From a virus, in the IMG/VR virus record IMGVR_UViG_3300042559_000515, positions 1 to 64,000 of that record: a stretch of DNA of 64,000 nucleotides. One strand, given 5' to 3'. A model generated the notes under the pieces. That model saw only the letters and a list, made by a program, of their open reading frames with translations, did no database searches and was not told the DNA's origin. Shown one piece after another: positions 6,004-59,296 of this stretch. Each line of letters starts with the position of its first letter. Within the stretch, counting starts at the first letter, position 1. The translations under genes were made by a program, and so were the position numbers.

Positions 6004-6391
6004 CTGGCAACCTACTTGAAAGATGGCGCATCAGGGATTCGTTAACAGTAAACTCACGGCTCTTTGCAATAGAGCGAAGCGCACCAGTAGCAACAACCTT
6101 TTTCATTGGGTTGCCATACTCAAGGTCTTGGGCGTCAGGATGGTCAACGGTGTATTCCATAAAACCATCTTTAACAGACACATTTGCAGAATCAACTTTG
6201 TCAGCCCAGTCAGGGTGGCGAGAAAGTTGTTCTTTTAATGCGGAAGATTCTTCACTTAACACACTTGACAGTGATTGTGACATGGCACTTTCATAGGTAT
6301 CCACGGTCTCTTCCAGAATGGAAAGGATGGAGAAGTCTCCAGATACGATTGGTTTAGAGCCTGTGCTTGTATGCAGTTGTGCAGAAGTCAT
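5996..6391 (-). CDS. Putative neck / head-tail connector protein (HK97 gp10-like position)
   Basis: A 131-residue protein. An upstream GTG at 6403 is possible, but the ATG at 6391 has a good ribosome site (GGAGAAG) two bases before it, so I start there. The middle has a short strand-rich stretch, 'MEYTVDHPDAQDLEYGNP', reminiscent of gp10-like head-tail joining proteins. The rest is helical. It overlaps the downstream gene by 8 bases, which suggests coupled translation. Function is inferred from context. Confidence 0.45.
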   Translation of the reverse strand: MTSAQLHTSTGSKPIVSGDFSILSILEETVDTYESAMSQSLSSVLSEESSALKEQLSRHPDWADKVDSANVSVKDGFMEYTVDHPDAQDLEYGNPMKKVVATGALRSIAKSREFTVNESLMRHLSSRLPDA

Positions 6392-9588: not shown

Positions 9589-9624
9589 GGCTACTCCTTT
9601 ACTGATTGATGGACTAAAATTGTG

Positions 9625-9660
9625 AAAGGTGGGATACTAGGCTTTCGCCGTTCTCCCACC
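9625..9660 (-). terminator. Terminator-like hairpin after the capsid gene
   Basis: On the minus strand a 7-bp stem GGTGGGA/TCCCACC (9628-9634 with 9654-9660) encloses a GGC-GAAA-GCC hairpin and is followed by TTTC. It lies right downstream of the major capsid gene. A partial terminator here would let capsid transcripts accumulate over the downstream genes. The T-tract is short, so it may be leaky. Confidence 0.5.
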
Positions 9661-9675
9661 CTACACTAACACTGG

Positions 9676-10752
9676 TTAGGCAGTAGGAACTGCGCCACCA
9701 AGGGTGTTGATGAGTACACGAGACTCGTGTGTAATTACACCGAAGCCCCAGATTGCGTACCAGGACAAGCCGTGCTCACGACCGAAGTCAATGACACCAC
9801 CGTCACGGAGTTCCACTGGCAATGCAATGGCCTGACCGAAGGCGTTGTCACCAATCATGATGCCTGTGTATGAGTTGCTAAGAACTGCGTCACGGATGCT
9901 CGTTGCTGGGTTGGAGTCAACGGTGCCGAGACCTGACTTGACCTGTGTGGTTTCAATGAAGACCACATCGTAGATGCGTCCGATTTCACCGAGCATGAAG
10001 TTGCCAGGTGCGGCGTACTTCGTGACTTCAATGAACTCAGGCCAGTCACGCAATGAGCGAGCCTGTGCAGGGTTTACGAAACAAACATAGGTGTCGCCAA
10101 GGCGAGGAATGTTCTGTCCAGCCAAGATTTCAACTGCGTCCTTGATGGTTGCAGGTGAGAGGTAGCCAGGAGCGCCTGAGTTACCAGCGGCTGCATACTC
10201 GTAAGGAGCACGAGGACCACGGGTAGAAGGTGCGGTGCGACCGAACACAACGCTTGGTGCTACAGCCGAGCCACCACCGAATGGTACGCCTGGCTGGTAG
10301 AGGGTGTTGCGTGCCTGGATGTCCATGGACTGTGCCATGTGACGACCAAGAAGTCGTGAAGCCGATGCCATAACATCGTCAAACGAAGCGTTGAGGAGGA
10401 GTTCGGTAACCGAAACTGCCTGACCCTGTTCCTTGACGGTGATTTGAATCTGGCTTGCAGAGAGGGCGACTGGGTTCATACGAACGCCTTCCGTCAATTC
10501 TGCACCACTTGTCTCGTTAATAGCGAGGTTGTTGTAGCGCATGAAGTTGATGGTAAGACCAGGCATGACGCCGAGTTCCGTCTTCTTAACTGCGAACTGC
10601 TCAAAGCGAAGCACGGGCATCGCCTGGAACAGGATTTCCTTTGACCAAATGGTCTGAATGGCGGGGGAGAGATACGAACCGCTGTCGTATCCAGCCGCCG
10701 AAGTTGCGCCAGCGGTAGTTACTGCACCGCCAGCAGGTGTTGGGTATGCCAT
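9676..10752 (-). CDS. Major capsid protein, N4-gp56-like
   Basis: A 358-residue protein of the right length for a HK97-fold capsid protein. 'SPAIQTIWSKEILFQAMPVLRFEQF' (about residues 28-52) and 'ELGVMPGLTINFMRYNNL' (about 58-75) match the pattern of N4-gp56 family major capsid proteins. 'GRHMAQSMDIQARNTLY' follows in the long-helix region. It is preceded by the scaffold gene, has a strong codon bias, and is followed by a terminator-like hairpin. It forms the icosahedral shell. Confidence 0.88.
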   Translation of the reverse strand: MAYPTPAGGAVTTAGATSAAGYDSGSYLSPAIQTIWSKEILFQAMPVLRFEQFAVKKTELGVMPGLTINFMRYNNLAINETSGAELTEGVRMNPVALSASQIQITVKEQGQAVSVTELLLNASFDDVMASASRLLGRHMAQSMDIQARNTLYQPGVPFGGGSAVAPSVVFGRTAPSTRGPRAPYEYAAAGNSGAPGYLSPATIKDAVEILAGQNIPRLGDTYVCFVNPAQARSLRDWPEFIEVTKYAAPGNFMLGEIGRIYDVVFIETTQVKSGLGTVDSNPATSIRDAVLSNSYTGIMIGDNAFGQAIALPVELRDGGVIDFGREHGLSWYAIWGFGVITHESRVLINTLGGAVPTA

Positions 10753-23586: not shown

Positions 23587-24648
23587 TTAATCCTTTAACT
23601 GGTACCAACCATCTTCCCACAAAGTGAGGAGACGGTTGAAGTACTTCTCATACATTAAACCAACGGGAGTAAGACCATATCGGTCTTTAGCGTAGGTGCT
23701 GATTAACTGGCGGTCTAGTTCTGGCGCCTTTTTAGCCGCATCTACAAACTCTTGAAGAGTGTGGCAACGGAACCCCGTCACTCCGTCTTGGACAGTTTCA
23801 GTAAAGGCGCCCCAGTCGGTAGAGATAACAGGGGTACCACAAGCCATCGCTTCAATAGCCACTGTTCCAAAAGGCTCCACATAGATTGTTGGTGCAAATA
23901 GGGCTATTGCGCCTCCCATGAGTTCGGCTCTTTTTTCTGTTCCTACAACACCTACATACTCACCGTACTCTGGTGGTACACCCTGCCCAGCAATCACCAG
24001 ACGCTTCCCTAGAGCCTTACAGACATCTACGGCTATCTGGTAGCCCTTGCGCTCAATAAGGCGTCCCATATAGAGATAGTAATCCCCAGGTGTTTCTTGT
24101 AATGGAAAATCATCAACATCAATGTAACTAGGGATGACGGTGTCATAGAACTTACCGTCAAGGGCGTGGGGGTCGGTTACCTTGGAGCCGTAACAGGAGT
24201 GCATCCATGCGTAGGACTCAAATACCTTGTAGGGGGCAAATGAGCCACCATAACCAATACCGAACTCCACACTCAATTCATTTGGGAAAGCGTCAGCAAT
24301 AGGTTTGGAGGCATAGCCAGCGATAAGACAAATAAAGTCTTTGTGCTCTAAGCGCTCTTTAATTCCCTTGATGACATTGTTGTTGAAACTAACCCAGTGG
24401 GGAAGTGTCCAATCAAAAGAAGCCGCTGAGTAATGGTTGTCTCCAACTGCAACAAGCCGTTCTTCTTCTGTAATACAAACAATGTGCTCGTCACAAGGGG
24501 CTTCATTGAATTCCCCACCATACAGATAGACCGTATGACCAAGGTCTTTCATCATGATGCAGAACTTGCGAATCTTTTCTGTATAGGCGCAAGCCGTAAA
24601 GTCTTCAGTGGTGTTTGTGTGAGGAAGACTAACTATGTGGAATCTCAT
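23587..24648 (-). CDS. Glycosyltransferase, GT4/GT1-like
   Basis: A 353-residue protein (start at ATG 24648; a TTG one codon earlier is possible). The C-terminal half has the Rossmann donor domain: 'YLYMGRLIERKGYQIAVDV', 'LVIAGQG', and the E-x7-E motif in 'VEPFGTVAIEAMACGTPVIS' near residue 262. The acceptor half starts 'FHIVSLPHTNTTEDFTACAY'. GT4 enzymes transfer sugar from a nucleotide donor. In phages they may modify DNA or glycosylate virion or host surface. Gene neighbours are fibres, so virion modification is an inference. Confidence 0.85.
   Translation of the reverse strand: MRFHIVSLPHTNTTEDFTACAYTEKIRKFCIMMKDLGHTVYLYGGEFNEAPCDEHIVCITEEERLVAVGDNHYSAASFDWTLPHWVSFNNNVIKGIKERLEHKDFICLIAGYASKPIADAFPNELSVEFGIGYGGSFAPYKVFESYAWMHSCYGSKVTDPHALDGKFYDTVIPSYIDVDDFPLQETPGDYYLYMGRLIERKGYQIAVDVCKALGKRLVIAGQGVPPEYGEYVGVVGTEKRAELMGGAIALFAPTIYVEPFGTVAIEAMACGTPVISTDWGAFTETVQDGVTGFRCHTLQEFVDAAKKAPELDRQLISTYAKDRYGLTPVGLMYEKYFNRLLTLWEDGWYQLKD

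Positions 24649-26936: not shown

Positions 26937-26937
<1 letters not shown>
25723..26937 (-). CDS. Gly-rich tail fibre with fibronectin-like start and Cys-Tyr repeat
   Basis: A 404-residue protein. Residues 20-115 form a fibronectin III-like or similar beta-sandwich ('VYFDYSTSSVFSSFTTV', 'LSNGTLYYVRCRAVNGVGTT'). Residues 140-250 are Gly-rich. Around residues 255-320 is a Cys-rich stretch ('NPFNCNPFSCNPYACNCRCC', later 'TCYQTCYQTCYAYDC'). The remainder is Gly-rich again. It lies among fibre genes and is probably a virion surface adhesin; the tandem Cys-Tyr repeat is uncommon. Confidence 0.7.
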
Positions 26938-30220
<3,283 letters not shown>

Positions 30221-30224
<4 letters not shown>

Positions 30225-30940
30225 ACTGGGGGCACAGAGGTTGAAGGCTCTACAACAACCTGCCCCTGCGAAATGCTTGACCAATCACCAGCACTATCTT
30301 TTACGAATAGGTCAAATGAATAGGAGCCAGCAGGGATACCATTGGTGTCAGAGATATGGATTTCTAGCGTGTAACCTGCCTTAGGCGCAATGTACCCACG
30401 CTTGTTAGAAGGGCTTAGGGCGATAATAGTTGACTCACTTGGAGCAGTTGAGAACCAGCGGAGGTCAAGGACGGTGGTTCCAGAAGTGTTCTTTGCCTGC
30501 ATGAAAGCATCAGTGACAGTCAAGATGTTGCCATCAGAATCTTTCCATGTGTAGGACTGGCGGAAGTCTGTATATTTCTTGAAACGGATTTCCATAGCGA
30601 GAGCGTCCTCCAGAGGCGTAATGTTGTCTAGGGCAGATACTGTAATTGTACCTTTTGAAATCATTGTTTGGATACCCTTAACAGTTGCAAGGACATCATA
30701 AGAAAGTTCACCGAGTGGTAAATCTTGTGTTTCTTCTGCTGTTAGGCTTAACTCCACCCCACGCTCAGTAGTAATAGTGGTGGTAATCTCGGCTACAGTC
30801 AAATCACCTGTCTTGATGTAAGCACGGGCATCAGTAGGGGCATACAAACGGCGTGTTCGTCTATCCTTAATGATAAGCAACCGTTCCCACGGTAATCCCC
30901 GTGTGAGACTGTATTTAATTGTCTGAGCCTGATAAGACAT
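30221..30940 (-). CDS. Baseplate/fibre adaptor with two beta-sandwich repeats
   Basis: A 239-residue protein with two similar beta domains. Each begins with an aromatic strand then '[15 protein letters not shown]' or '[16 protein letters not shown]', and each ends with a Ser/Thr-rich strand. The pattern recalls the LtfC/BppU-like beta-sandwich of fibre adaptors. The stop overlaps the long fibre ATG. Probably an upper-baseplate connector for the collagen fibre. Confidence 0.55.
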
Positions 30941-33869: not shown

Positions 33870-34133
33870 TTATTGCTCTGTGCGTGAGATGCCAGAGTCA
33901 GACGCAAGCAACTGTCCTGACCACTCGTTGGCGTTACAGTCTTGACAATTGTCTAAATCTTTACAATTACAGCGTGATGTAATTGCATTGATAAATGCCG
34001 CCTGATTGCGCTGTCCTCGTGAAAGGAAGCCACCGCCACCTCCGAGGTTAATACCCTCAATTGCAGGTCGTTCCATTTCGCTACGGCTTGGTGTATCTGG
34101 ACCGCTACCCATGCCTGATTTTTTCTTTGCCAT
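33870..34133 (-). CDS. Unrecognised protein with Cys-rich middle
   Basis: An 87-residue protein with a Gly-rich start and a Cys cluster at about 56-70 ('RCNCKDLDNCQDCNA'). The Gly stretch (GGGGG) is near residues 30-35. It may bind zinc. It precedes the next ParB-fold gene by 33 bases. Confidence 0.5.
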   Translation of the reverse strand: MAKKKSGMGSGPDTPSRSEMERPAIEGINLGGGGGFLSRGQRNQAAFINAITSRCNCKDLDNCQDCNANEWSGQLLASDSGISRTEQ

Positions 34134-34166: not shown

Positions 34167-34568
34167 TTATGACCCTTTTCTAGGGTCAATACCTAAGTTG
34201 AATAAGTGCTTACTGTCATCCCCATACTCAATAGGGATAAACATGTCAGGGTTGATGCTAAATGCCGAAGCGACTCGGTGGTGACCATCAGAGATAACTG
34301 TTTCATCATTCTCTCGGCTGAAGAACTCAATATTGACAGGGTTTTGGACACCCTTTTCTTTGATTGAATCATGGAGGTTAAGGTTGTCATACATTTTTGC
34401 GTAAGAAATAGGGTCCATAGACTCTTCAAGTTTTTCATTTAACAATTCTGGATTTTGTGACATAGGACGCCACTCTTCCAAATCATCACCTGCTGGCATG
34501 TCCATTAACTCACGGGCAGTCATAAATAACTTGAGTTGTTTTGGATTGAGGTGATTTTTAGCCGCCAT
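34167..34568 (-). CDS. ParB-fold protein with an N-terminal QLKLF motif
   Basis: A 133-residue protein. Residues 7-20 carry 'LNPKQLKLFMTARELM', a motif repeated in other genes of the block. The ParB-fold core is 'VISDGHHRVASAFSIN' near residue 95, with a DGHHR loop. The ATG is one base from the end of the upstream paralogue. The N-terminal QLKLF matches a sliding-clamp-binding type pentapeptide, but that function is untested. Confidence 0.65.
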   Translation of the reverse strand: MAAKNHLNPKQLKLFMTARELMDMPAGDDLEEWRPMSQNPELLNEKLEESMDPISYAKMYDNLNLHDSIKEKGVQNPVNIEFFSRENDETVISDGHHRVASAFSINPDMFIPIEYGDDSKHLFNLGIDPRKGS

Positions 34569-35419
34569 TAGTAATCCTCTAAACCAGGAAGTTTGGGTTG
34601 TGAATTATTATTTGGCAAATCTTCTTGAGAAAATTGAGTAGACATCTTAGAACGGCGATTTCTTCTAAGTTCGTCCCTTAGTGCGCTTCTTGCCACACGC
34701 ACATCTTCATGTGATACCTCACCACGAAGGTAAATGCCCATGTGCTTTTCTTCAAAAGGTGTGACAATCTTTGGCTCAAACATAGTTGTGTTTACTTGTT
34801 CACTTCCAGGATTGTCTTCATTAGGTTGAATTAATCCACGCTCTACAGCGTGCTTAGCAATACGACTGCTATGAGGGGACAAGTTTGCTGAGGGGATAAT
34901 GTCAGAGTTTAAGTGGTCTTGCTTAATGATTGACATCAATGTTGGAAAAGTGTGTGTTGCATGCTTATCAAAGTACGCATTAGAAATTTCTAGAGTACCC
35001 CTCTGTTCCCCAAACAGTTTCCCAGTATTAACCATAGGGTGATTTTTAATAACCTCTACTGCCCTACTAAAACCCTCTGGGTCTGTCCTATGTGTAGCCT
35101 CGTCATTGATGACGCTACTGATGGAAGAAACATCTTCTTCAGACATGTTGGGGTCATTGAAGTCACTGAGGTGTTTGATTAGTTCATGAGAGACACCAGT
35201 GGCTCTACTTAGGTGACGGGTAGGTGCGTACTTACCCCGTTCGTTTCCATTGTCCCAGATAGGTCCGTTAAAACCTGGGTTATGGATTACGCCTACTTCA
35301 CCCCAAGCGTGGCCTGCAAGAGCACCGCTTCCAACTAAAGCGTCACTGTCAGTTGCAACAGCACGGTAACTCTTCCAACCTGCACCAAAGTTACCGTCTC
35401 CCCTAAAGTACCTACCCAT
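34568..35419 (-). CDS. Paralogue A of an unrecognised 280-residue family
   Basis: A 283-residue protein. It shares with three relatives a central block 'IIPSANLSPHSSRIAKHAVERGL' followed by an 'NP' and an 'E..NT' element, plus a C-terminal tail 'QPKLPGLEDY'. It is the most divergent of the four: its N-terminus differs ('GWKSYRAVATDSDALV'). The gene follows a holin-like gene and precedes a ParB-fold gene. No enzyme motif seen. Confidence 0.55.
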   Translation of the reverse strand: MGRYFRGDGNFGAGWKSYRAVATDSDALVGSGALAGHAWGEVGVIHNPGFNGPIWDNGNERGKYAPTRHLSRATGVSHELIKHLSDFNDPNMSEEDVSSISSVINDEATHRTDPEGFSRAVEVIKNHPMVNTGKLFGEQRGTLEISNAYFDKHATHTFPTLMSIIKQDHLNSDIIPSANLSPHSSRIAKHAVERGLIQPNEDNPGSEQVNTTMFEPKIVTPFEEKHMGIYLRGEVSHEDVRVARSALRDELRRNRRSKMSTQFSQEDLPNNNSQPKLPGLEDY

Positions 35420-41856: not shown

Positions 41857-42348
41857 TTGACCCAGTTCATACGAAGCCCTTGGCAGGGTGAGAATCAATC
41901 AGATATGCGCCACGGTCGGCAAGGGGTGGCAACCCCTCCCCAGTCAGACCGTGGTTATTGCGAACTAGCAGGTTCTGTGAACCTCCTCGGCTCCGCTAAG
42001 TCCACTCGGTGGATACTGGCGGATGACCCACTGACGCTAAGTCCAACGCTGACACTGCATTGTGTTGACCCCATAGTGGGTCACTTGCTCCAAGGAGCCT
42101 TTGCAGGACAGGCAATGGTAATGCGAATCGGATGGAGGGTTCCGTTCATCAAGGTCACCACTTCGGTGTGTGCGCCAATTACGAACGAGGGCAGGTGTCA
42201 AGGGATTGGCACGACACACAGAACAGAGGCTCTGCGGAGAAGGACTCAACTAGCACCGACTACACGGCACACGGTTCGCAACCCACACCAGTTGACGCTC
42301 AAGGTCAGTTGGAAAGCATCAGCACATGGTGTGGGGTCGCAACGGTGT
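41857..42348 (+). other. Densely folded leader without a gene
   Basis: An open frame runs through this segment and into the next gene, but the composition is not protein-like and the real start is downstream. Instead there are strong stems: CCACGGTC/GACCGTGG (41910-41917 with 41947-41954) enclosing AGGGGT-GGCA-ACCCCT; AGGTTC/GAACCT (41970-41984); TCCAC/GTGGA (42001-42013); TGACCCAC/GTGGGTCA (42024-42031 with 42076-42083). It may be a structured RNA leading the plus-strand operon. Confidence 0.55.
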
Positions 42349-42422
42349 CGGGGGGTTCGCCCCTCGGCTCCGTGCCACTGGCACATCGCAAGGTGTGCTG
42401 GTGGGACGGATAATCCGTTCCC
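42349..42422 (+). promoter_or_regulatory. Tripartite hairpin element, copy 1
   Basis: H1 is a 7-bp stem with a TTCG loop (42349-42366). H2 is a two-part stem CCAC/GTGG plus G(C)ACA/TGTGC (42375-42404). H3 is GGGACGGA/TCCG-T-TCCC (42403-42422), which reuses bases 42403-42404 of the H2 3' arm. AAAGGAG follows at 42429, then ATG at 42445. Confidence 0.6.
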
Positions 42423-42444
42423 TCTACCAAAGGAGCACCACACA

Positions 42445-42906
42445 ATGGCACTTAATGTTGATTGGGGAAACACCCCCGTTTATAAAGAGTTCCTCGCCAC
42501 CACCCCTGATGGCGACTTCACTGACTCCAACGGCTACCCACGCTTCCCTATCGGTGACCTCATGTTCAGCATGATGATTGTCCAGCAGGGTCGCATCTCT
42601 GAGAAGAACGCCCACAAGGTGTTCGCTCGCCTGTCGCTTTACCTTGAAGCGATGGTCGGTGGTTCATTCTCACGAGTGTGGGATGGCGAGAAGGTCATTG
42701 AAGAACGACTCAGCCCTGAGCACATCAAGCGTGCGATGGGCTTGCGAGTCAATGTGTCCGATGAGTCCGATACCAGTTGGGTGCAGTACTTCTTGCGTCT
42801 TGTAAAGCGTGAGAATGCTGAGCCTGTTGCTGGCATGACCGAATGGACAACGGCGAATATCAAGCGCCACCTTGCGAAGTACGAGGTTGACTACCTCGCC
42901 TCGTAA
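42445..42906 (+). CDS. First plus-operon gene, unrecognised
   Basis: A 153-residue protein. I place the start at 42445 because it has AAAGGAG nine bases before and follows the tripartite element; the in-frame extension to 41857 is rejected. Composition is normal, with 'GDLMFSMMIVQQGRISEKNA' and 'LSPEHIKRAMGLRVNVSDES'. The strand-helix mix suggests a compact domain. Function unknown. Confidence 0.55.
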   Translation: MALNVDWGNTPVYKEFLATTPDGDFTDSNGYPRFPIGDLMFSMMIVQQGRISEKNAHKVFARLSLYLEAMVGGSFSRVWDGEKVIEERLSPEHIKRAMGLRVNVSDESDTSWVQYFLRLVKRENAEPVAGMTEWTTANIKRHLAKYEVDYLAS

Positions 42907-42926
42907 GTCACACCCACTACCAAAGG

Positions 42927-42996
42927 CATCAGCGCTTCGGCGCTGGTGTCCTCACTGTGCATCGGCTTCGGTCGGTGCATGGTGAGGACATTGTCC
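42927..42996 (+). promoter_or_regulatory. Tripartite hairpin element, copy 2
   Basis: H1: CATCAGCGC-TTCG-GCGCTGGTG (42927-42948). H2: TGTCCTCAC/GTGAGGACA (42947-42955 with 42982-42990) enclosing GCATCGGC-TTCG-GTCGGTGC (42959-42978). H3: GGAC/GTCC (42986-42989 with 42993-42996), using bases of the H2 3' arm. A start at 43019 follows. Confidence 0.75.
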
Positions 42997-43018
42997 ACAA
43001 CACAAGGAGCACCACACA

Positions 43019-43384
43019 ATGAAAGCAACCGACCCTGAGTTTGCAGGAATGCACCACGATGAAATCTTGAAGCACTTTGCAGGCATCAAGGCAAGCATCA
43101 AGAAAATGGGGGGCGTGACAGTCCCTCCAACACGCCAGCAGGTTGAGTGGGACAGCGTCCCTCTCATTCACGAAGACGCAACAATCGGTCATGTTGTCAA
43201 AGACATCCGAATTGACAGCGTTGGTCATGTCGGCATCGTTGATGATGTGAGCGTCATCACGAAGCGTGACGGACGCACAGCAGTTGTTGTGTCGTTCCGA
43301 TTCGTCAACCACACAACGCTCAACCAATCCCGTACCGACATCAGAACTCGCAAGGTTGAGTTCATCCTCAACAACAACCAATAG
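43019..43384 (+). CDS. Unrecognised 121-residue protein
   Basis: A strand-rich protein with 'HEDATIGHVVKDIRIDSVGH' and 'AVVVSFRFVNHTTLNQSR'. A Thr/Lys/Asp-rich surface is visible. Starts after an AAGGAGCACC ribosome site. Function unknown. Confidence 0.5.
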   Translation: MKATDPEFAGMHHDEILKHFAGIKASIKKMGGVTVPPTRQQVEWDSVPLIHEDATIGHVVKDIRIDSVGHVGIVDDVSVITKRDGRTAVVVSFRFVNHTTLNQSRTDIRTRKVEFILNNNQ

Positions 43385-43392
43385 GAGCACCA

Positions 43393-43677
43393 ATGACAAC
43401 ACCTAAGACATACCCAACCTTCACTGACCCTGACGGCGTCCTACAGCCGTTCAAGGGTATGACCACGGGGCGCCATGCGAAGCGTGTCGTCTCGTACTGG
43501 CGCAAGGATGCGAGTGAGCCGTGGAAACGCTTCGGTAACTCCGTGAGCGTTGACGCCATGGACAAGCGCATGCGTCACATTGAAAAGCAAGGATGGAAGA
43601 TTCGTTACTCCATCATTGACATGGACAACCAACTCACCATCAAACAAATTGAAACCATCAACAAGGAGAACAAATAA
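43393..43677 (+). CDS. Unrecognised 94-residue protein
   Basis: A soluble basic protein ('VSYWRKDASEPWKRFGNSVS', 'RHIEKQGWKIRYSIIDMDNQ'). The ATG has an AGGAG site; the stop overlaps the next ATG (TAATG). Function unknown. Confidence 0.5.
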   Translation: MTTPKTYPTFTDPDGVLQPFKGMTTGRHAKRVVSYWRKDASEPWKRFGNSVSVDAMDKRMRHIEKQGWKIRYSIIDMDNQLTIKQIETINKENK

Positions 43678-44006
43678 TGAGCACATCAACCAACACACGC
43701 CACCCACTGACCATCTCGTACACCCTCATGGTGAGCGAGGAATTGCTGGACAACCTCAAGTCGCATGACGGCACCCGTTACTGGGTGCTGGGCGAATACG
43801 AAGTCCACACTGACTTTGAGGGTGAGACCTACATCACCGACAACGGTCACCGCTTCAACTACGACACTGAGACCGCACTGCGTGGCATCGCACTGTGGAT
43901 TCAGAACGGTGGTGACTGGGACGAACTCAAAGACTTGTCCACCGACCACTACGACCACGATGCCATTTGGCAGTACGGGTTCTTCGGTGAACTTGTCTAC
44001 GGCTAA
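43677..44006 (+). CDS. Unrecognised 109-residue protein
   Basis: Acidic protein with aromatic-rich centre ('WVLGEYEVHTDFEGETYIT') and a Trp-rich end ('WIQNGGDWDELKDLS'). Coupled to the upstream gene by TAATG. Function unknown. Confidence 0.5.
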   Translation: MSTSTNTRHPLTISYTLMVSEELLDNLKSHDGTRYWVLGEYEVHTDFEGETYITDNGHRFNYDTETALRGIALWIQNGGDWDELKDLSTDHYDHDAIWQYGFFGELVYG

Positions 44007-44052
44007 CCCATTGACCACCTACAACAACAACACCAACCAACAAGGAGCAATC

Positions 44053-44997
44053 ATGACCACATCAGTAACCGAGGTGCAGAGCACCCTTTCAACCTTCCAG
44101 CCTCGTGACCGCAAGTACGACTTGCGCACCGCCGAGGGCAAGTACTTCAAGCGCCTCAACTCGTACAACAGTGAGTACACAGTGACCACTGGCGTTGTCA
44201 TCGTCCCTGAGGAGCGTGGCTACGGCGACACTGCCACCGTCATTGATGTGACCTACGATGCCATCCATCTTGTGCGCACCGTTGATGTTGACAGCGACCT
44301 CGTTGAGACCTACCTCAAGGGCAAGTTGCAGTACGACTGGCAGTCTCGTGACCGCAAGAAGGCATCGTTCATTGTCGTCAACGAGGCGCTCTTCCAAGAG
44401 AGTTGGTCGGGCGGTCGCTGGGTGCATGTTGACTACTCCGTGTGGTCGCTTGAAGAGGGTGGCGAGGTAGTTGCCACCACTGGCACCAGCGACACTGACC
44501 ATTACGAGACCTCACGCATTGTTGCTAAGGCGCTCGGTAATCGTGTGTTTGAGATGAACTCGGACATCCAAGCCAATGAAGCACGCAAGGCACAGGCTGA
44601 CGAGCATGCACGCAAGGTTGCCGATGTCTTGTCAGCGTTCGTGCCGTCCTACTCCTACGAGCGTTCGCTTGCCGAAGCCACCAAGTTCATTGAGCGTGGT
44701 GTGAAGGAGTCAGAGGGTGAGAACAGTCACTGGCACAATCATGTGCATGTCGCCATTGACATTGAGGTGATGAAACTCTGTAAGCGATATGTACAGATTC
44801 TCGGTGCGACCACCGACACTGTCCGCATTGCGTTCAACTCGTACAGCGGTGACATCAAGGTCGTTGATGAGCACATGGCATACGCCACGGTCATCGCAGA
44901 GCGCACTGGTGGTGGCTGGTCAAGCAACGACTTCTCAGGAGCGTTGCTGGGTCAGGTACTTCACCGCTTCACCAAGATTGTCTGCCAGCACATCTAG
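44053..44997 (+). CDS. Unrecognised 314-residue protein
   Basis: The ribosome site CAAGGAGCAATC supports the ATG at 44053; an upstream extension to 43765 would run through the previous gene and is rejected. Regions include 'FQPRDRKYDLRTAEGKYFKR', a helix 'ANEARKAQADEHARKVADVL' and 'KLCKRYVQILGATTDTVRIA'. Largest unknown of the first half of the operon. Function unknown. Confidence 0.55.
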   Translation: MTTSVTEVQSTLSTFQPRDRKYDLRTAEGKYFKRLNSYNSEYTVTTGVVIVPEERGYGDTATVIDVTYDAIHLVRTVDVDSDLVETYLKGKLQYDWQSRDRKKASFIVVNEALFQESWSGGRWVHVDYSVWSLEEGGEVVATTGTSDTDHYETSRIVAKALGNRVFEMNSDIQANEARKAQADEHARKVADVLSAFVPSYSYERSLAEATKFIERGVKESEGENSHWHNHVHVAIDIEVMKLCKRYVQILGATTDTVRIAFNSYSGDIKVVDEHMAYATVIAERTGGGWSSNDFSGALLGQVLHRFTKIVCQHI

Positions 44998-45018
44998 TCA
45001 CGACAACATCCCCCAAGG

Positions 45019-45103
45019 CATCACAGGCTCCCCCAGCCTGTGGTGTCCTCACAGGACATCGGCACTCCCCCAAGTGTCGGTGTCTTGTGAGGGCATACAG
45101 CCC
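45019..45103 (+). promoter_or_regulatory. Tripartite hairpin element, copy 3
   Basis: H1: CATCACAGGCT-ccccc-AGCCTGTGGTG (45019-45045). H2: TGTCCTCAC/GTGAGGGCA (45044-45052 with 45087-45095, one G.U) enclosing GACATCGGCACT/AGTGTCGGTGTC (45055-45066 with 45073-45084, 12 bp). H3: GGGC/GCCC (45091-45094 with 45100-45103), reusing the H2 3' arm. The next start is at 45130. Confidence 0.75.
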
Positions 45104-45129
45104 AGCACCACTATCAACAGGAGAATCCA

Positions 45130-45675
45130 ATGGGCGTTTATCAATACGCAATTACAAAGACCAAGCGAATCAAGGGACTGTCCGATGTCTTCGGTGACAT
45201 CGGTGTGGTTGAGTTCCGCTACAGGTACTCGTGGTCACCGAACGAGAAGTTTGAGAAGTACTGCGCTCGCCTTGACGCCAATATTGAGCGCAAGTGGGCA
45301 GGCACTGAGTTGCCGATTCTTGTGACCGACAAGAAGGGCAGGGGCTTGTCAGTGTGGGTCGGTGACAGTGCGAACTGGTGTGACGGTGACAGCAAGGGTG
45401 GCGAGATGCCAATCGGCTCATCGCAGGGCTGGGATGCCTTGTGGCACTGGGCAGAACGCAATGGTCGTTTGGAGATTCCACTGTGGTTGATGACCGCTGG
45501 CGACTTTGAGCACAGCCAAGAGATTCCATTCGTCCCGACTACTGAGAAGGCATACCGAGAACTGGTGGACGCCTGCTCCACTCTCCGCCTCCGTCAGCGT
45601 GGCGACAGCAACGCTCAGCCACAGATTCCGAACAACCGCTACTGGGTCAACAATGACCTCTACACATACCTTTAA
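45130..45675 (+). CDS. Unrecognised 181-residue protein
   Basis: Soluble protein with 'VGDSANWCDGDSKGGEMPIG' and a Trp-rich region ('SQGWDALWHWAERNGRLEIP'). Preceded by tripartite element 3. No family recognised. Confidence 0.5.
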   Translation: MGVYQYAITKTKRIKGLSDVFGDIGVVEFRYRYSWSPNEKFEKYCARLDANIERKWAGTELPILVTDKKGRGLSVWVGDSANWCDGDSKGGEMPIGSSQGWDALWHWAERNGRLEIPLWLMTAGDFEHSQEIPFVPTTEKAYRELVDACSTLRLRQRGDSNAQPQIPNNRYWVNNDLYTYL

Positions 45676-45685
45676 GGAGAACCCA

Positions 45686-45982
45686 ATGACCATCAAGCAA
45701 TACACAGTCACAATGTCCAGCACGCACTTCGTGCTTGCCGAATCCATATCGCAAGCGGAGAGCATCGTGTACGAGGCACTGCTTCGTCTCTCCAAGGTGG
45801 ACGAGCGTGTCCCCGACAGTGAGGTGGACTGGTTCCACGCAGTCACCCTTGAGGACGGGCACTACTCAACCATCGTGCGAGACGGTGACGAGATGAGTGA
45901 CTACGACAGGAAAGTCCAACGATTGAAGCGAGTGCGAGAACTCGTTGAGAAGGTCTGCAACGAAGAGATGGAGAAGAACTAA
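45686..45982 (+). CDS. Unrecognised 98-residue protein
   Basis: Start ATG at 45686 has an AAGGAGAACCCA site. Helical with 'LAESISQAESIVYEALLRLS' and a charged C-terminus. The stop overlaps the next start (TAATG). Function unknown. Confidence 0.5.
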   Translation: MTIKQYTVTMSSTHFVLAESISQAESIVYEALLRLSKVDERVPDSEVDWFHAVTLEDGHYSTIVRDGDEMSDYDRKVQRLKRVRELVEKVCNEEMEKN

Positions 45983-46284
45983 TGACCACAATCACAGTTA
46001 CATGGAAGGCGTTTGCGGACTCACTGACCTTTAAGGAGAAGGTCACATCGGCAACCATTAAGACCAACCGCATTCAAGGTGATGGCATCGCCATCGCTGA
46101 GGTGGTGTTCCGTGACACCAACCTCTACCAAGGCGTGCTGTGGGACTTGCTGGAGCCTGTCCTGCCTGAGAACCGAACACACACAGCACTGAGTGTTGGT
46201 GACGAGGTGACCGTTGACGGTCGCACTTACCAATGCGCCAGTATCGGCTGGGTGGAACTCACCTTTGACGCAGTCAACCAATAA
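45982..46284 (+). CDS. Unrecognised 100-residue protein
   Basis: Beta-rich ('VTATWKAFADSLTF'-like start, then 'VLWDLLEPVLPENRTHTALS'). Coupled to its upstream neighbour. Function unknown. Confidence 0.5.
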   Translation: MTTITVTWKAFADSLTFKEKVTSATIKTNRIQGDGIAIAEVVFRDTNLYQGVLWDLLEPVLPENRTHTALSVGDEVTVDGRTYQCASIGWVELTFDAVNQ

Positions 46285-46314
46285 ACAACCAGTTCTAGTA
46301 AAGGAGAACAAAAA

Positions 46315-47034
46315 ATGTCAGCCACCACCATCACCCCCCGTCAGCAGTCATTTATTCGCTCACTCTTAGAGGAGCGTCTTGATGTACTGGAAATCACCAA
46401 CCTTGACGAGTACATCGTCTCGGTCGGTCTCAACGCACTCACAGCGAACTCTGCGAGCAAACTCATTGAGCATCTCAAGTCGGTGCCTGTGGGCAAGAAG
46501 TCAGAGCATGCGCACTTGCCCGAAGGTCGGGTCATCGTCAACAAGTTCGCCAAGGAGTGCACGCTCTGTGGTGGCTTGGTGGACAGCGGTGCTGGTCATG
46601 CAGTGCAGACTGCTAATGGCTGGCGGACATTCCATGCGATGGACAAGTGCAGTGCACCAGCCGATGCTCCACGCATCACGGTTGAGTCCAAGCGTGCGTA
46701 TCGCTGTGACGATGGCACTGTCGCTATCGCCTACACCACACAGAACGGTCGCATTGCGATGCGCCGTCTTGTGATTCACGAGGACAACAAGGGTTCTCTT
46801 GAGTACTGGAAGGGCGGTGTCGCCATCGTGAGCGCCACTGGCTCGCTCCTTACGCAGGAGCAGGCATCCGAACTCGGCAAGGTGTACGGGTTCTGCATCT
46901 GCTGTGGCAAGGACTTGAGTGAAGACCAGTCGCTTGCTGTCGGGTATGGCAGGACTTGTGCTGGCAACAATGAGTGGTGGTACCCATCACCCAGTGAAGC
47001 ACGAGAGATTCTCAACCGACCAGTCAGTATCTAG
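46315..47034 (+). CDS. DUF6011-like zinc protein
   Basis: A 239-residue protein. Zinc-like sites: 'ECTLCGGLVDSGAGHAV' (about 80-96) and near the end 'FCICCGKDLSEDQSLAVGYG', then 'RTCAGN'. The second pattern (CxxCG-x-L-...-GxG-x-x-C) is that of DUF6011, common in actinophages. N-terminal helices contain 'TPRQQSFIRSLLEERLDVLE'. Nucleic acid interaction is likely given its place beside the helicase. Confidence 0.65.
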   Translation: MSATTITPRQQSFIRSLLEERLDVLEITNLDEYIVSVGLNALTANSASKLIEHLKSVPVGKKSEHAHLPEGRVIVNKFAKECTLCGGLVDSGAGHAVQTANGWRTFHAMDKCSAPADAPRITVESKRAYRCDDGTVAIAYTTQNGRIAMRRLVIHEDNKGSLEYWKGGVAIVSATGSLLTQEQASELGKVYGFCICCGKDLSEDQSLAVGYGRTCAGNNEWWYPSPSEAREILNRPVSI

Positions 47035-47054
47035 TTCAACCCATTAGTTGAGGG

Positions 47055-47135
47055 GACAGCACGAGCAACTGTTCGTGCCGTCCTCACTATCTATTCGCAA
47101 TGTGTGAGTAGGTAGTGAGGGCGATATCATCGCCC
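47055..47135 (+). promoter_or_regulatory. Tripartite hairpin element, copy 4
   Basis: H1: GACaGCACGA/TCGTGCcGTC (47055-47064 with 47073-47082). H2: GTCCTCACTATCTA/TAGGTAGTGAGGGC (47080-47093 with 47109-47122, 14 bp). H3: GGGCGAT/ATCGCCC (47119-47125 with 47129-47135), which takes up the last four bases of the H2 3' arm. Precedes the helicase start at 47167. Confidence 0.75.
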
Positions 47136-47166
47136 CTGAGCACCCAACATAACCAAGGAGTATTCC

Positions 47167-48705
47167 ATGTCCCACCGTTCCGCACTTGATGCCCTGCTGT
47201 CCTCAGCAGTGCGTGTCCCCAAACCCATTGATGTCTGCCCCGAACTCACAGCGCTGTCGGGTGCACATGACTATGACCTCGGCTTTGACCTGTCACTGCC
47301 ATTACTCCCGTACCAGCGTGCTGGTGTGGCGTATGCGCTCAAGCAACGCCGTGTCATCCTCGGTGACGAGATGGGCTTGGGCAAGACCCCACAACTCATT
47401 GCCGTGGCTCTCAAGGCTGTTGAGGACGGTCACCGTGCACTCATCGTGGTGCCACCGTCACTGCGCCTCAACTGGGACAGAGAGATTGCCAAGTTCACCT
47501 CTCGCCGTCTCACCGTGGAGATTGCTGAGGGCACCACGCCCTACGCACTGCGCAAGTCTGATGTCGTCATCATCGGTGACGCCAGTGTGGTCGGCTGGGC
47601 GCCTGCGCTCAACCGTCTCAACTTCGGTGCACTGTTAGTTGACGAGGCACACCGCTTCAAGAACCCCAAGGCAAAGCGCACCATCGCATTGCAGGGCATC
47701 GCTCGTGGCATTGATGCTGACGGGTATGTCGTGCTCGCTTCGGGTACGCCAGCAACCAACCGCCCCGTTGAGTTGGTCGCACTGCTTGACACCATCGGTC
47801 GCCTTGACCCTGTGTTCGGTTCTGCTGGTTCATTCAAGTGGCGCTACTGCGACCCGATTCGCAATGCGTTCGGCTGGACATTCAACGGTTCAACCAACAG
47901 TGCCGAGTTGCACGACAAGTTGCGTGGCACTTGCTACATCCGCCGTAAGAAGGCTGATGTGCTCACCGAGTTGCCAGCCAAGCGCCGTGCTCAGGTTGCT
48001 ATCGCTCTGACCGATGTGGAGTTGCGTGAGTACCTCCGCATTGAGTCTGACTTCCTCATGTGGGTGTACGGCAAGGGTGGTCGTGAGGCTGTCATGCGTG
48101 TGTCTCGTGCCGAGGCAATCACGCAGTTGACCGCACTGCGACAGGAGATGGCAAAGGTCAAGGTCAAGCACGCCATTGAGCACATTGAGTCCATCGTTGA
48201 GGGTGACCAGCCAGTGGTCATCTTCGGACATCACCGTGCGGTGCTTGAGTCCATCATCGCTGAGTGTGAGACACGCTCTGCTGAAGACCCACGATGGAAT
48301 GTCGTGAGTGTTCTCGGTGGCAAGTCCGATGCACAAAAGCAACAAGCAGTGGACGACTTCCAGTCGGGTCGTGCGAGCGTGTTCGTGGGCAACTACACCT
48401 CCGCTGGTGTCGGTCTCACACTCACTCGTGCCAACCAGTGGGTGAGCGTGGAGTTACCGTGGACACCTGCTGAACTACAGCAAGCCGAAGACCGATGCCA
48501 CAGATTCACGCAAACAGAATCTGTGACTTGCTGGCACCTGACTGGTGCTCGTGCCAATGGTCAGTTGACCATTGACGACCGACTCTTCGGTCTGCTCAAC
48601 AGCAAGGCGGAGGTTCTCTCCGCAGTGCTTGACGGCAACGCCGAAGACCTCGGTGCTGAGGCTGGCTCACTGCTCGCCTCGCTCCTTGGTGACTGGGTCG
48701 GCTAA
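47167..48705 (+). CDS. SNF2-family helicase / ATPase
   Basis: A 512-residue protein. SNF2 motifs in order: Q-like 'LLPYQRAGVAYALKQ' near 46-60, Walker A 'DEMGLGKT' (67-74), Ia 'ALIVVPPSLRLNW' (91-103), DEAH (159-162), III 'SGTP' (192-195), IV-VI in the C-terminal half ('PVVIFGHHRAVLESI', 'VGNYTSAGVGLTLTRANQWV', 'QQAEDRCHRFTQTESV'). It resembles SMARCAL1-like SNF2 ATPases. These reanneal or remodel DNA; here a role in phage replication is likely. Preceded by tripartite element 4. Confidence 0.88.
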   Translation: MSHRSALDALLSSAVRVPKPIDVCPELTALSGAHDYDLGFDLSLPLLPYQRAGVAYALKQRRVILGDEMGLGKTPQLIAVALKAVEDGHRALIVVPPSLRLNWDREIAKFTSRRLTVEIAEGTTPYALRKSDVVIIGDASVVGWAPALNRLNFGALLVDEAHRFKNPKAKRTIALQGIARGIDADGYVVLASGTPATNRPVELVALLDTIGRLDPVFGSAGSFKWRYCDPIRNAFGWTFNGSTNSAELHDKLRGTCYIRRKKADVLTELPAKRRAQVAIALTDVELREYLRIESDFLMWVYGKGGREAVMRVSRAEAITQLTALRQEMAKVKVKHAIEHIESIVEGDQPVVIFGHHRAVLESIIAECETRSAEDPRWNVVSVLGGKSDAQKQQAVDDFQSGRASVFVGNYTSAGVGLTLTRANQWVSVELPWTPAELQQAEDRCHRFTQTESVTCWHLTGARANGQLTIDDRLFGLLNSKAEVLSAVLDGNAEDLGAEAGSLLASLLGDWVG

Positions 48706-48730
48706 CACAATCTGAGGTGGTGCTCACGGG

Positions 48731-48811
48731 CGTCACGAGGTGCGAGCCTCGTGGCGTGCCGTGGTCATTGTGGGGTCGGGACACTCCGCAGTGACCACGG
48801 GACGCAAGTCC
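48731..48811 (+). promoter_or_regulatory. Tripartite hairpin element, copy 5
   Basis: H1: CGTCACGAGG/CCTCGTGGCG (48731-48740 with 48747-48756). H2: CCGTGGTCA/TGACCACGG (48759-48767 with 48792-48800) enclosing GGGGT/ACTCC. H3: GGAC-GCAA-GTCC (48800-48811), sharing the last base of the H2 3' arm. The next start is at 48843. Confidence 0.65.
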
Positions 48812-48842: not shown

Positions 48843-49211
48843 ATGAAGACACAAGCAATCATCACTATCAACCATCCCGACAACCTGTCAGCGAACTGGG
48901 TTATCGCTGATGTCATTGACCCATTCATCGCTGATGTCAACACTGGTGGCAACGATGAATGGAATCTCGCCTTGGCGTTGTCACTGACCGAGACGCAACT
49001 GCGTGACAAGGCATTGCGCAGTGCGCTGTTGCTGGTTCTCAGTGACTTCCCTGCGGACATGAGCAACGAGTGGATTCTTGACGGCGTCCTCAATGATGAC
49101 GAGCGCATCATTGTGTGGGAGCCGTTCTCCATCGTCAACTGGGACAAAGAAGAACTGGTCGCTCACATTGAGCAGACAGCGGACACCATCTACAACACAT
49201 ACTTTCAATAA
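48843..49211 (+). CDS. Unrecognised 122-residue protein
   Basis: Acidic, Asn/Leu-rich protein with 'PDNLSANWVIADVIDPFIAD' and 'DEWILDGVLND'-like helices. Preceded by tripartite element 5. Function unknown. Confidence 0.5.
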   Translation: MKTQAIITINHPDNLSANWVIADVIDPFIADVNTGGNDEWNLALALSLTETQLRDKALRSALLLVLSDFPADMSNEWILDGVLNDDERIIVWEPFSIVNWDKEELVAHIEQTADTIYNTYFQ

Positions 49212-53299: not shown

Positions 53300-53315
53300 G
53301 TTGTCATCAACCAAT

Positions 53316-53339
53316 CACGCCGATAAATTAGTCGGTGTG
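53316..53339 (+). other. Leader hairpin of the DUF932 gene
   Basis: CACGCCGA-TAAATTAG-TCGGTGTG: an 8-bp stem with an 8-base loop, upstream of 53382. No T-tract follows. Could be a leader hairpin or an mRNA stabiliser. Different from the tripartite elements. Confidence 0.4.
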
Positions 53340-53381
53340 GTACCACCCACAACAAAAACCAAACACAGAAAGTAACTAACC

Positions 53382-57859: not shown

Positions 57860-59296
57860 TCAAGACTCTTCTGACAGGTCAATGATTTCTGCGTACATGG
57901 CATCGGTTGCCTCTGGACTCATCCCACCATTGGGCAGTTGGCGAGCCTGCTCCCCTGCCTTGGCTCCGAACAAACGAGACAGGACACCGCTGGTGCCACG
58001 AGCCTCAACCTCAAACCGTAGGGTGTCTCGGCTGTCAGAGATGTTCTTCATGCGCTCCACCATGTTGAAGACTCTGTCCATTTCTGTTGACAGCGTGGTG
58101 TCAATTCCTTGACCTTCTAGTTCTTCAGCGAACCTAGCGAACATCACACGACCCACCTGCATCTCTACGAGAGCACGCATAGCGGCGTTTAATTGGTCTT
58201 TGGTACGAATCTCAATGGGCAAAGAAAACGCACACTCACTATTCTCTTGAAATTGAGGACAACGACTTGCCAAGTAACAATGATTACATTGCCTCAAAGG
58301 GTTGGCGTTGTAACGAAGAACATTGACCTGTTCTGGGTCAATTTCTATTGATTCTCCTTGGTTATCTGTGTGTTGAGTACCTATAGAAGTAACCGTCTCA
58401 ACACCCATAACTGGGAGTAATCTTTTTTCGCTTTCGTGCCTCTTTTCAGGTACCTGTGGAACAATGTTTGTACCCCTCGGTGCCACAGATACCGTATTAT
58501 CGGTATCCCCTGAAATCATTATGATTTGGTTGTCATCAGTGAGTGTGAACTCTTCTTCGTCATCAACATTCATAAGGTCATAGCCCCCAAAGTTTTTAGT
58601 TTCCCATGCTCTCCACGATTGGATAGCGAGGTGTGCCACAGCGTTTACTTCATCTTCAAGGACTGCGTTGTAATCCACACCAAGACGCTGAATGTCGTTG
58701 CGGTGTCTCTTGCGTGCGCTCTCTTTTTGTTGTGCTGGGTAACGGTGTAGTGCGTGTCCATCCCACACCTGAGTCTCTCCGTAACGCAGTGCGCTAGACC
58801 ATGAGACGACTACAACGGACTCCCAGTTGATGCGACCAATTACATCAGGCTTAGAGGTCATACCGATTAATTGCGTTGACCAGCGTGTAGCAATCTGCCC
58901 GATGCGTGAGATTGTCTTACCTGTGATGGCTTTGTCTGAGATAGCCACACGACCATACTTCTGACACAGCCACTGGAGACGCTCTAGGTCATCGGGGTCA
59001 TTCCAAATGGGCACATACTTCTCACCCATCCATGACCCATCATAATCTGGTCGTCCAATTACATAAGTCAAATTATCTATGTGCTCACGAATAAATGAGT
59101 CATAACGAGCCAAGTCTTCATCATTCTCTGAGACATAGAGGATGATGTCATGCCCCTGATACACCGTTGCGAGGTCTAACTCTTTGCGCTTAGGAACGGC
59201 GTAATGGGTCAGGTTGATACCGAATCGGGTAACACCTGCGCTCAACAACATAGACCTGTATGAGCCTTTCTCGGCTCCTCCAAAGAATACTTTCAC
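57860..59296 (-). CDS. Large unrecognised protein with a Cys cluster
   Basis: A 478-residue protein with a GTG start overlapping the previous stop (GTGA). N-terminus is a nucleotide-like region ('MKVFFGGAEKGSYRSMLLSA', then 'HDIILYVSENDEDLARYDSF'). A Cys cluster near residue 333 ('CNHCYLASRCPQFQENSECA') could bind an iron-sulfur cluster or zinc. The C-terminus has coiled-coil helices. No family recognised. Confidence 0.5.
   Translation of the reverse strand: MKVFFGGAEKGSYRSMLLSAGVTRFGINLTHYAVPKRKELDLATVYQGHDIILYVSENDEDLARYDSFIREHIDNLTYVIGRPDYDGSWMGEKYVPIWNDPDDLERLQWLCQKYGRVAISDKAITGKTISRIGQIATRWSTQLIGMTSKPDVIGRINWESVVVVSWSSALRYGETQVWDGHALHRYPAQQKESARKRHRNDIQRLGVDYNAVLEDEVNAVAHLAIQSWRAWETKNFGGYDLMNVDDEEEFTLTDDNQIIMISGDTDNTVSVAPRGTNIVPQVPEKRHESEKRLLPVMGVETVTSIGTQHTDNQGESIEIDPEQVNVLRYNANPLRQCNHCYLASRCPQFQENSECAFSLPIEIRTKDQLNAAMRALVEMQVGRVMFARFAEELEGQGIDTTLSTEMDRVFNMVERMKNISDSRDTLRFEVEARGTSGVLSRLFGAKAGEQARQLPNGGMSPEATDAMYAEIIDLSEES

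Follow-up and report, generated by a model that had tools for sequence, protein, structure and literature searches.

The RNase III sites of phage T7 are single hairpins with internal loops. Repeated between the cistrons of one phage mRNA, they split polycistronic mRNA into mono- and dicistronic messages (PMC4858673); one of them, R1.1, is described in PMC8708148, and a duplex of 12 bp is enough for single-strand cleavage by E. coli RNase III (PMC8708148). A long hairpin located 5' of a ribosome site is present also in the 5' UTR of the Staphylococcus aureus cspA gene, where, after an experimentally shown cut, a shorter 5' hairpin remains and the mRNA becomes more stable and better translated (PMC3386247). 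In actinophages, the closest described arrangements are the ESAS/SAS sequences of cluster K mycobacteriophages (PMC3203893) and the Microbacterium EF/EG repeats (PMC7302621), about ten copies of which, located in one genome region, lie just 5' of start codons and before genes of different families. As for overlapping segments of one RNA that pair alternatively, trp-type attenuators use the pairings 1:2, 2:3 and 3:4.

Here we report an element found in a stretch of 64,000 nucleotides (hereafter the window), which is part of a virus record of 83,630 bases. Like the T7 sites, it is repeated between cistrons of one operon, and its H2 hairpin resembles that of cspA in that a cut would leave a shorter 5' hairpin, as we propose for H3. 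It differs from the T7 sites, to which no sequence relation is known, in having three abutting hairpins (H1, H2 and H3) with shared strands, a nearly perfect H2 and 5-9 copies, and in that its cleavage is only predicted; cspA in turn is a single chromosomal gene without H1, and its hairpin is not repeated (PMC3386247). The ESAS and EF/EG sequences are conserved-sequence repeats with inverted repeats of 17-18 bp, ESAS having in addition a fixed 13-bp start sequence, whereas a three-hairpin fold, shared strands and covariation are not reported in the parts of those papers available to us (PMC3203893, PMC7302621). The 13-bp sequence, GGGATAGGAGCCC or GGGAAAGGACCCC, is absent from the element-associated starts, where the start regions read AAGGAGCACC or CCTGAGGAGG. 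In contrast to trp-type attenuators, the element has no visible leader peptide and no terminator T tract, and occurs in many copies per operon.

The first-pass annotation of the window knew no described family with this layout, and our searches agree with it: Rfam 15 gave 0 matches at the gathering score for the window and six related loci and only sub-threshold, chance-like matches for three more loci, and no description of this element was found in literature searches. We conclude that this RNA family is new but belongs to a general kind already known, the cis-acting intercistronic RNAs of phages; its membership in the class of RNase III sites is putative. As an undescribed family, it combines very strong covariation with many copies per genome and a tie to independent translation starts.

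Layout of the element in the window

Five intergenic three-hairpin segments, in which H3 takes over bases of the H2 3' arm, had been described from the letters of the window alone. All five are present where they had been placed (Table 1), and none of 200 dinucleotide shuffles per segment folded as well (0/200); these segments account for five of the window's strongest hairpins. H3 is built on the 3' end of H2 in all five copies, and the outer stem of H2 given for copies 2-4, GTCCTCAC paired with GTGAGG(A/G)C, is correct. There is no linker between H1 and H2, and their junction bases (4-7 nt) are common to both. When the outer 5' arm of H2 is called X, its 3' arm Y and the 3' arm of H3 Z, the hairpins form a chain, W:X / X:Y / Y:Z, which refines the first description.

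Copy 5 belongs to the family with 45.6 bits in covariance model R2, and the counterpart of copy 2 in the related contig L005 scores 79 bits. Copy 1, the most diverged of the five, had no covariance-model match; its L005 orthologue (L005 1300-1500) keeps the order H1-H2-H3, and its H2 loop is enlarged by an insert of about 100 nt, which carries a further long hairpin.

Table 1. Elements, downstream genes and companion structures (positions in the window unless another record is named; z, fold score against dinucleotide shuffles; bits, score with covariance model R1)
Feature	Position	Strand	Hairpins	Bases common to H2 and H3	Remarks
Element copy 1	42342..42421	+	H1 42342-42373, H2 42369-42410, H3 42403-42421	42403-42410	z -5.5; leader of the operon's first gene
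Gene after copy 1	42445..42906	+			no family match
Element copy 2	42925..42996	+	H1 42925-42950, H2 42944-42993, H3 42986-42996	42986-42989	z -7.0; 76 bits
Gene after copy 2	43019..43384	+			no family match
Element copy 3	45017..45103	+	H1 45017-45047, H2 45043-45096, H3 45091-45103	45091-45094	z -8.3; 74.9 bits
Gene after copy 3	45130..45675	+			L005 homologue sits behind the copy-2 element
Element copy 4, before SNF2 helicase gene	47052..47135	+	H1 47052-47085, H2 47079-47123, H3 47119-47135	47119-47123	z -8.9; 66.7 bits
SNF2-type helicase gene after copy 4	47167..48705	+			PF00176 E 7e-30, phrog_62 E 1e-96
Element copy 5, after helicase gene	48730..48811	+	H1 48730-48757, H2 48754-48805, H3 48800-48811	48800-48803	z -6.3
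Gene after copy 5	48843..49211	+			no family match
Class B element, G002	33914-34008 and 34528-34626				L168
Class B element, G006	2528-2619 and 6209-6306				L176
Pre-DUF932 hairpin, window	53300-53381				
Pre-DUF932 hairpin, G001	47258-47339				
Pre-DUF932 hairpin, G002	24282-24377				
Pre-DUF932 hairpin, G006	9617-9713				

Further copies and carrier phages

Further copies were searched for with the DNA pattern GTCCTCACN{22,34}GTGAGGGC, two more patterns and the covariance model R1, which was built from 13 copies. One phage family proved to carry the element, in 36 IMG/VR contigs, a figure that we counted from model hits and hairpin scans and that includes many near-duplicates; parsing left 52 non-redundant copies. 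One genome has 5 to 9 copies, all on the operon strand of a single operon and clustered in a zone some 5 to 10 kb long, when sense-strand matches and diverged copies are counted and mirror hits on the other strand are left out. The compared carriers (G000, G001, G002, G005 and G006) are one phage family with contractile-tail genes, according to genome-wide protein comparison and to family matches for portal, terminase, major head protein, tail sheath, DNA polymerase, DnaB helicase and UvsX-like recombinase.

A sequence search of 50,697 phage records gave no credible match. Among isolates, the closest by portal protein are the Streptomyces phages BRock, GiJojo, Alone3 and pSt2308 (52-57% identity), in which model searches found no significant match; the distant helicase relatives L007-L024 and L029 gave none either. 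A portal gene with 75% identity is borne by a MAG contig labelled Chloroflexi, which may be a misbinned phage.

Conserved fold and sense-strand action

An alignment of the copies had been suggested as a check for covariation. In the alignment of 64 distinct sequences, which was fitted to the model, H1/H2 pairs are kept at 97.4%, with two-sided change in 25/27 pairs; 0/500 shuffles reach any of five covariation measures, and pairing falls to 32-50% when the partner is slid by 1-3 columns. An independent MAFFT alignment of 13 copies gave 98.3% paired, with two-sided change in 16/27. This covariation of H1 and H2 is decisive for a conserved RNA fold. The two sequence-based outcomes named beforehand as refuting the element, a lack of covariation and a lack of further copies, were both looked for, and the results favour the element.

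The wobbles comprise 273 G-U and only 12 A-C, indicating that selection acts on the sense RNA rather than on a DNA palindrome, and the element model scores far lower on the opposite strand. A repeat acting at the DNA level, such as a cruciform, recombination site or mobile palindrome, would agree with the gene reshuffling at element borders between the window and L005; with selection on the sense RNA visible in both the wobbles and the strand scores, we regard it as extremely unlikely, and cruciforms and mobile palindromes were rejected by the G-U/A-C asymmetry.

Certain pairs are near-fixed: in H1, C-G in 64/64, A-U in 62/64 and a U.G wobble in 58/64 sequences; in H2, the blocks CU/AG and CA/UG, while most other H2 pairs vary freely. 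Because most pairs are free and few near-fixed, the fold appears to count most, and some partner may read the sequence of the element as well. Loops are mostly 3-6 nt long and resemble UUCG, GNRA or UNCG; these tetraloops are interchangeable, and no invariant column was found among the unpaired nucleotides.

Position of the elements in the operon

The end of H3 lies 6-29 nt 5' of the ribosome site and 19-42 nt 5' of the start codon (site recognised in 51/52), and in most copies the upstream stop lies within some 30 nt of the beginning of H1. In the element zones of G002 and G006, where genes were called with a simple script, all of the 20 same-strand intergenic gaps of at least 60 nt hold an element (20/20; the three-hairpin element in 16 and the class B element described below in 4), and 0/17 of the short, mostly coupled junctions do. 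The earlier description of a repeated, structurally conserved sense-strand RNA directly 5' of plus-operon genes, including that of the SNF2 helicase, is borne out.

An intrinsic terminator, pause or antitermination site might be seen in such GC-rich hairpins within an operon, and the put RNA of phage HK022 also consists of two adjoining hairpins. A T tract follows H3 in 0/52 copies, however, on which ground an intrinsic terminator or attenuator was rejected; moreover, the element lies always within 42 nt of the start codon (51/52 with a recognised start) and recurs many times per operon, so that a transcription signal appears very unlikely.

The genes downstream of the elements are mostly without family. 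Comparison of the window with L005 reveals that genes have been reshuffled right behind the elements: a near-same copy 2 precedes different genes in the two, and copy 3 likewise. Such an occurrence ties the element to independent translation starts and not to gene function, and in close relatives it argues against gene-specific sensing. A metabolite riboswitch would have conserved unpaired aptamer nucleotides and a stable link to one gene type; here loops vary freely, and the window and L005 show no such link. With the tetraloops interchangeable, no unpaired nucleotide conserved, the predicted balance of H2 and H3 unequal among copies and the downstream genes different, a ligand switch is disfavoured.

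H2 and H3 share a strand

Y pairs both with X, forming H2, and with Z, forming H3, and X-Y-Z sets such as GTCC-GGAC-GTCC, GTTC-GAAC-GTTC, GCTC-GAGC-GCTC and GCTG-CAGC-GCTG are found. The mutual exclusion of H2 and H3 that had been proposed for the window is accompanied by compensatory change, X, Y and Z being altered together in copy-4 orthologues: the window has GTCCTCA..TGAGGGCGAT..ATCGCCC and L005 has GCTCTCA..TGAGAGCGAT..ATCGCTC. In the related copies L153 and L165, GGAC..GTCC is replaced by GCAC..GTGC. Summed over 24 distinct types, H3 exceeds shuffled downstream sequence with z = 8.2 (0/20,000 draws); taken copy by copy, the signal is weak, the observed score being reached by 14% of shuffles and by 22% of swaps, because H3 is short and the best position was searched. 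Shuffling Z among copies gives an extreme-looking result, on which we did not rely, Z having been chosen for its pairing with Y. We accept that H3 is real at the family level and in orthologue pairs, and that H2 and H3 are mutually exclusive. Single folds and the sequence ATCGGG..CCCGAT in L038 had pointed to a fourth helix, W:Z, in which the stretch preceding H1 would pair with the H3 3' arm; it was rejected (P about 0.12 against shuffled controls).

Proposed processing of the operon transcript

The arms of H2 measure 19-24 bp in 50/52 copies, and the portion of H2 outside the H3 overlap 14-16 bp in 44/52; the duplex is long enough for RNase III, and the elements are intercistronic, with several copies per polycistronic operon. 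They probably mark where the long phage mRNA is cut or partitioned. Our tentative reading, to which we give somewhat less than an even chance, is that they are intercistronic processing sites in the manner of the phage T7 RNase III sites, the cleavage itself being inferred. H2, corresponding to about two helical turns, would be cut by a host RNase III-type double-strand endonuclease, leaving H1 to cap the 3' end of the upstream mRNA. The 3' arm released by the cut would then refold to H3, and this short hairpin, close to the new 5' end, may stabilise the downstream mRNA and keep the start site clear. The host enzyme is assumed because no phage RNase III gene was found in seven phage records, several of which are fragments.

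When H2 is cut mid-stem in silico, the predicted probability of H3 reaches a mean of 0.90 and is more than 0.8 in 46/52 copies; this rise is partly trivial because the competitor X is removed, and it is compatible with processing without being proof of it. Further points count against processing: near-invariant pairs in H1 and H2, including the U.G wobble, are needless for a substrate recognised purely by length and duplex, and copy 1, in the leader of the first gene, has no upstream cistron to cap. If the elements served as passive structural spacers, whose stable hairpins block exonucleases and insulate ribosome sites with neither cleavage nor switching, their stable folds, tetraloops and occurrence in all long gaps of the zone would be expected; the pairing of Y with both X and Z and the narrow length of H2 would be left unexplained, and we regard this role as improbable.

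The main rival to processing is a bistable regulatory switch, in which one factor, either a phage or host protein or the ribosome as it completes translation of the upstream gene, shifts the balance of X:Y and Y:Z at all copies together and alters initiation or elongation on the next gene. The joint change of X, Y and Z, the near-equal alternative folds of many copies, the near-invariant pairs with their conserved U.G wobble and the start of H1 close to the upstream stop speak for it. In G002 and G006, furthermore, the ribosome site lies in a GAGG-loop hairpin with covarying flanks (e.g., ATACCTGAGGAGGTAT, TTACCTGAGGAGGTAA and GACCTGAGGAGGTC) in 20/20 genes following an element, against 5/169 other genes, at least 2 of which follow a variant element; this hairpin could be a translational operator. 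The balance of H2 and H3 predicted by folding of the intact RNA varies widely, however (mean probability of H3 0.49, range 0.00-0.98 among copies), unpaired sequence is not conserved, the ribosome site is left free by H2 and H3 alike, and the phage group of the window is without the ribosome-site hairpin. We consider the switch rather unlikely. A more specific form, a new class of phage regulatory RNA in which one phage factor flips the H1/H2/H3 strand-exchange unit of every copy, is unlikely in our view; if true, a strand-exchange unit at each independent translation start would mean that switching takes place at the RNA level for the operon as a whole, the unit being paired in some phages with a hairpin displaying the ribosome site.

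For studies of phage transcript splitting, the 52 copies, with almost free sequence and a fixed fold, offer a natural series, which suits also the question of whether hairpins with a common strand are made for refolding upon cleavage.

Companion elements and other features

The class B element occupies gaps of the same operon and consists of a three-way junction with an invariant TTCAAT loop, followed by a hairpin; this loop is T-loop-like and the element perhaps tRNA-like. Many copies are present in L035, L046, L058, L061, L064, L105 and L124, and it was not found in the window. In 19 sequences, 96.6% of cells are paired, with two-sided change in 9/14 pairs and 0/500 shuffles reaching the covariation score; L048, which spans two copies, gave no Rfam match at the gathering score. 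With this companion, structured RNA is unusually dense in the operon.

A single hairpin of another kind, of the type CACG..TA..ATT..CGTGGTAC, is conserved before the DUF932 gene in four genomes (Table 1). Long intergenic hairpins 5' of genes are present also in BRock (8612, 11173 and 33873) and GiJojo (108123; L195-L206), several of them sharing a recurring TTTAGTC / GGCTATG internal loop. On the minus strand of the window, positions 57860-59296 encode a queuine tRNA-ribosyltransferase-like protein (phrog_887), a similarity that suggests 7-deazaguanine modification of DNA or RNA. A long tail-fibre-like gene occupies 26937-30284, also on the minus strand, and its collagen-type repeats produce strong hairpins in coding DNA.
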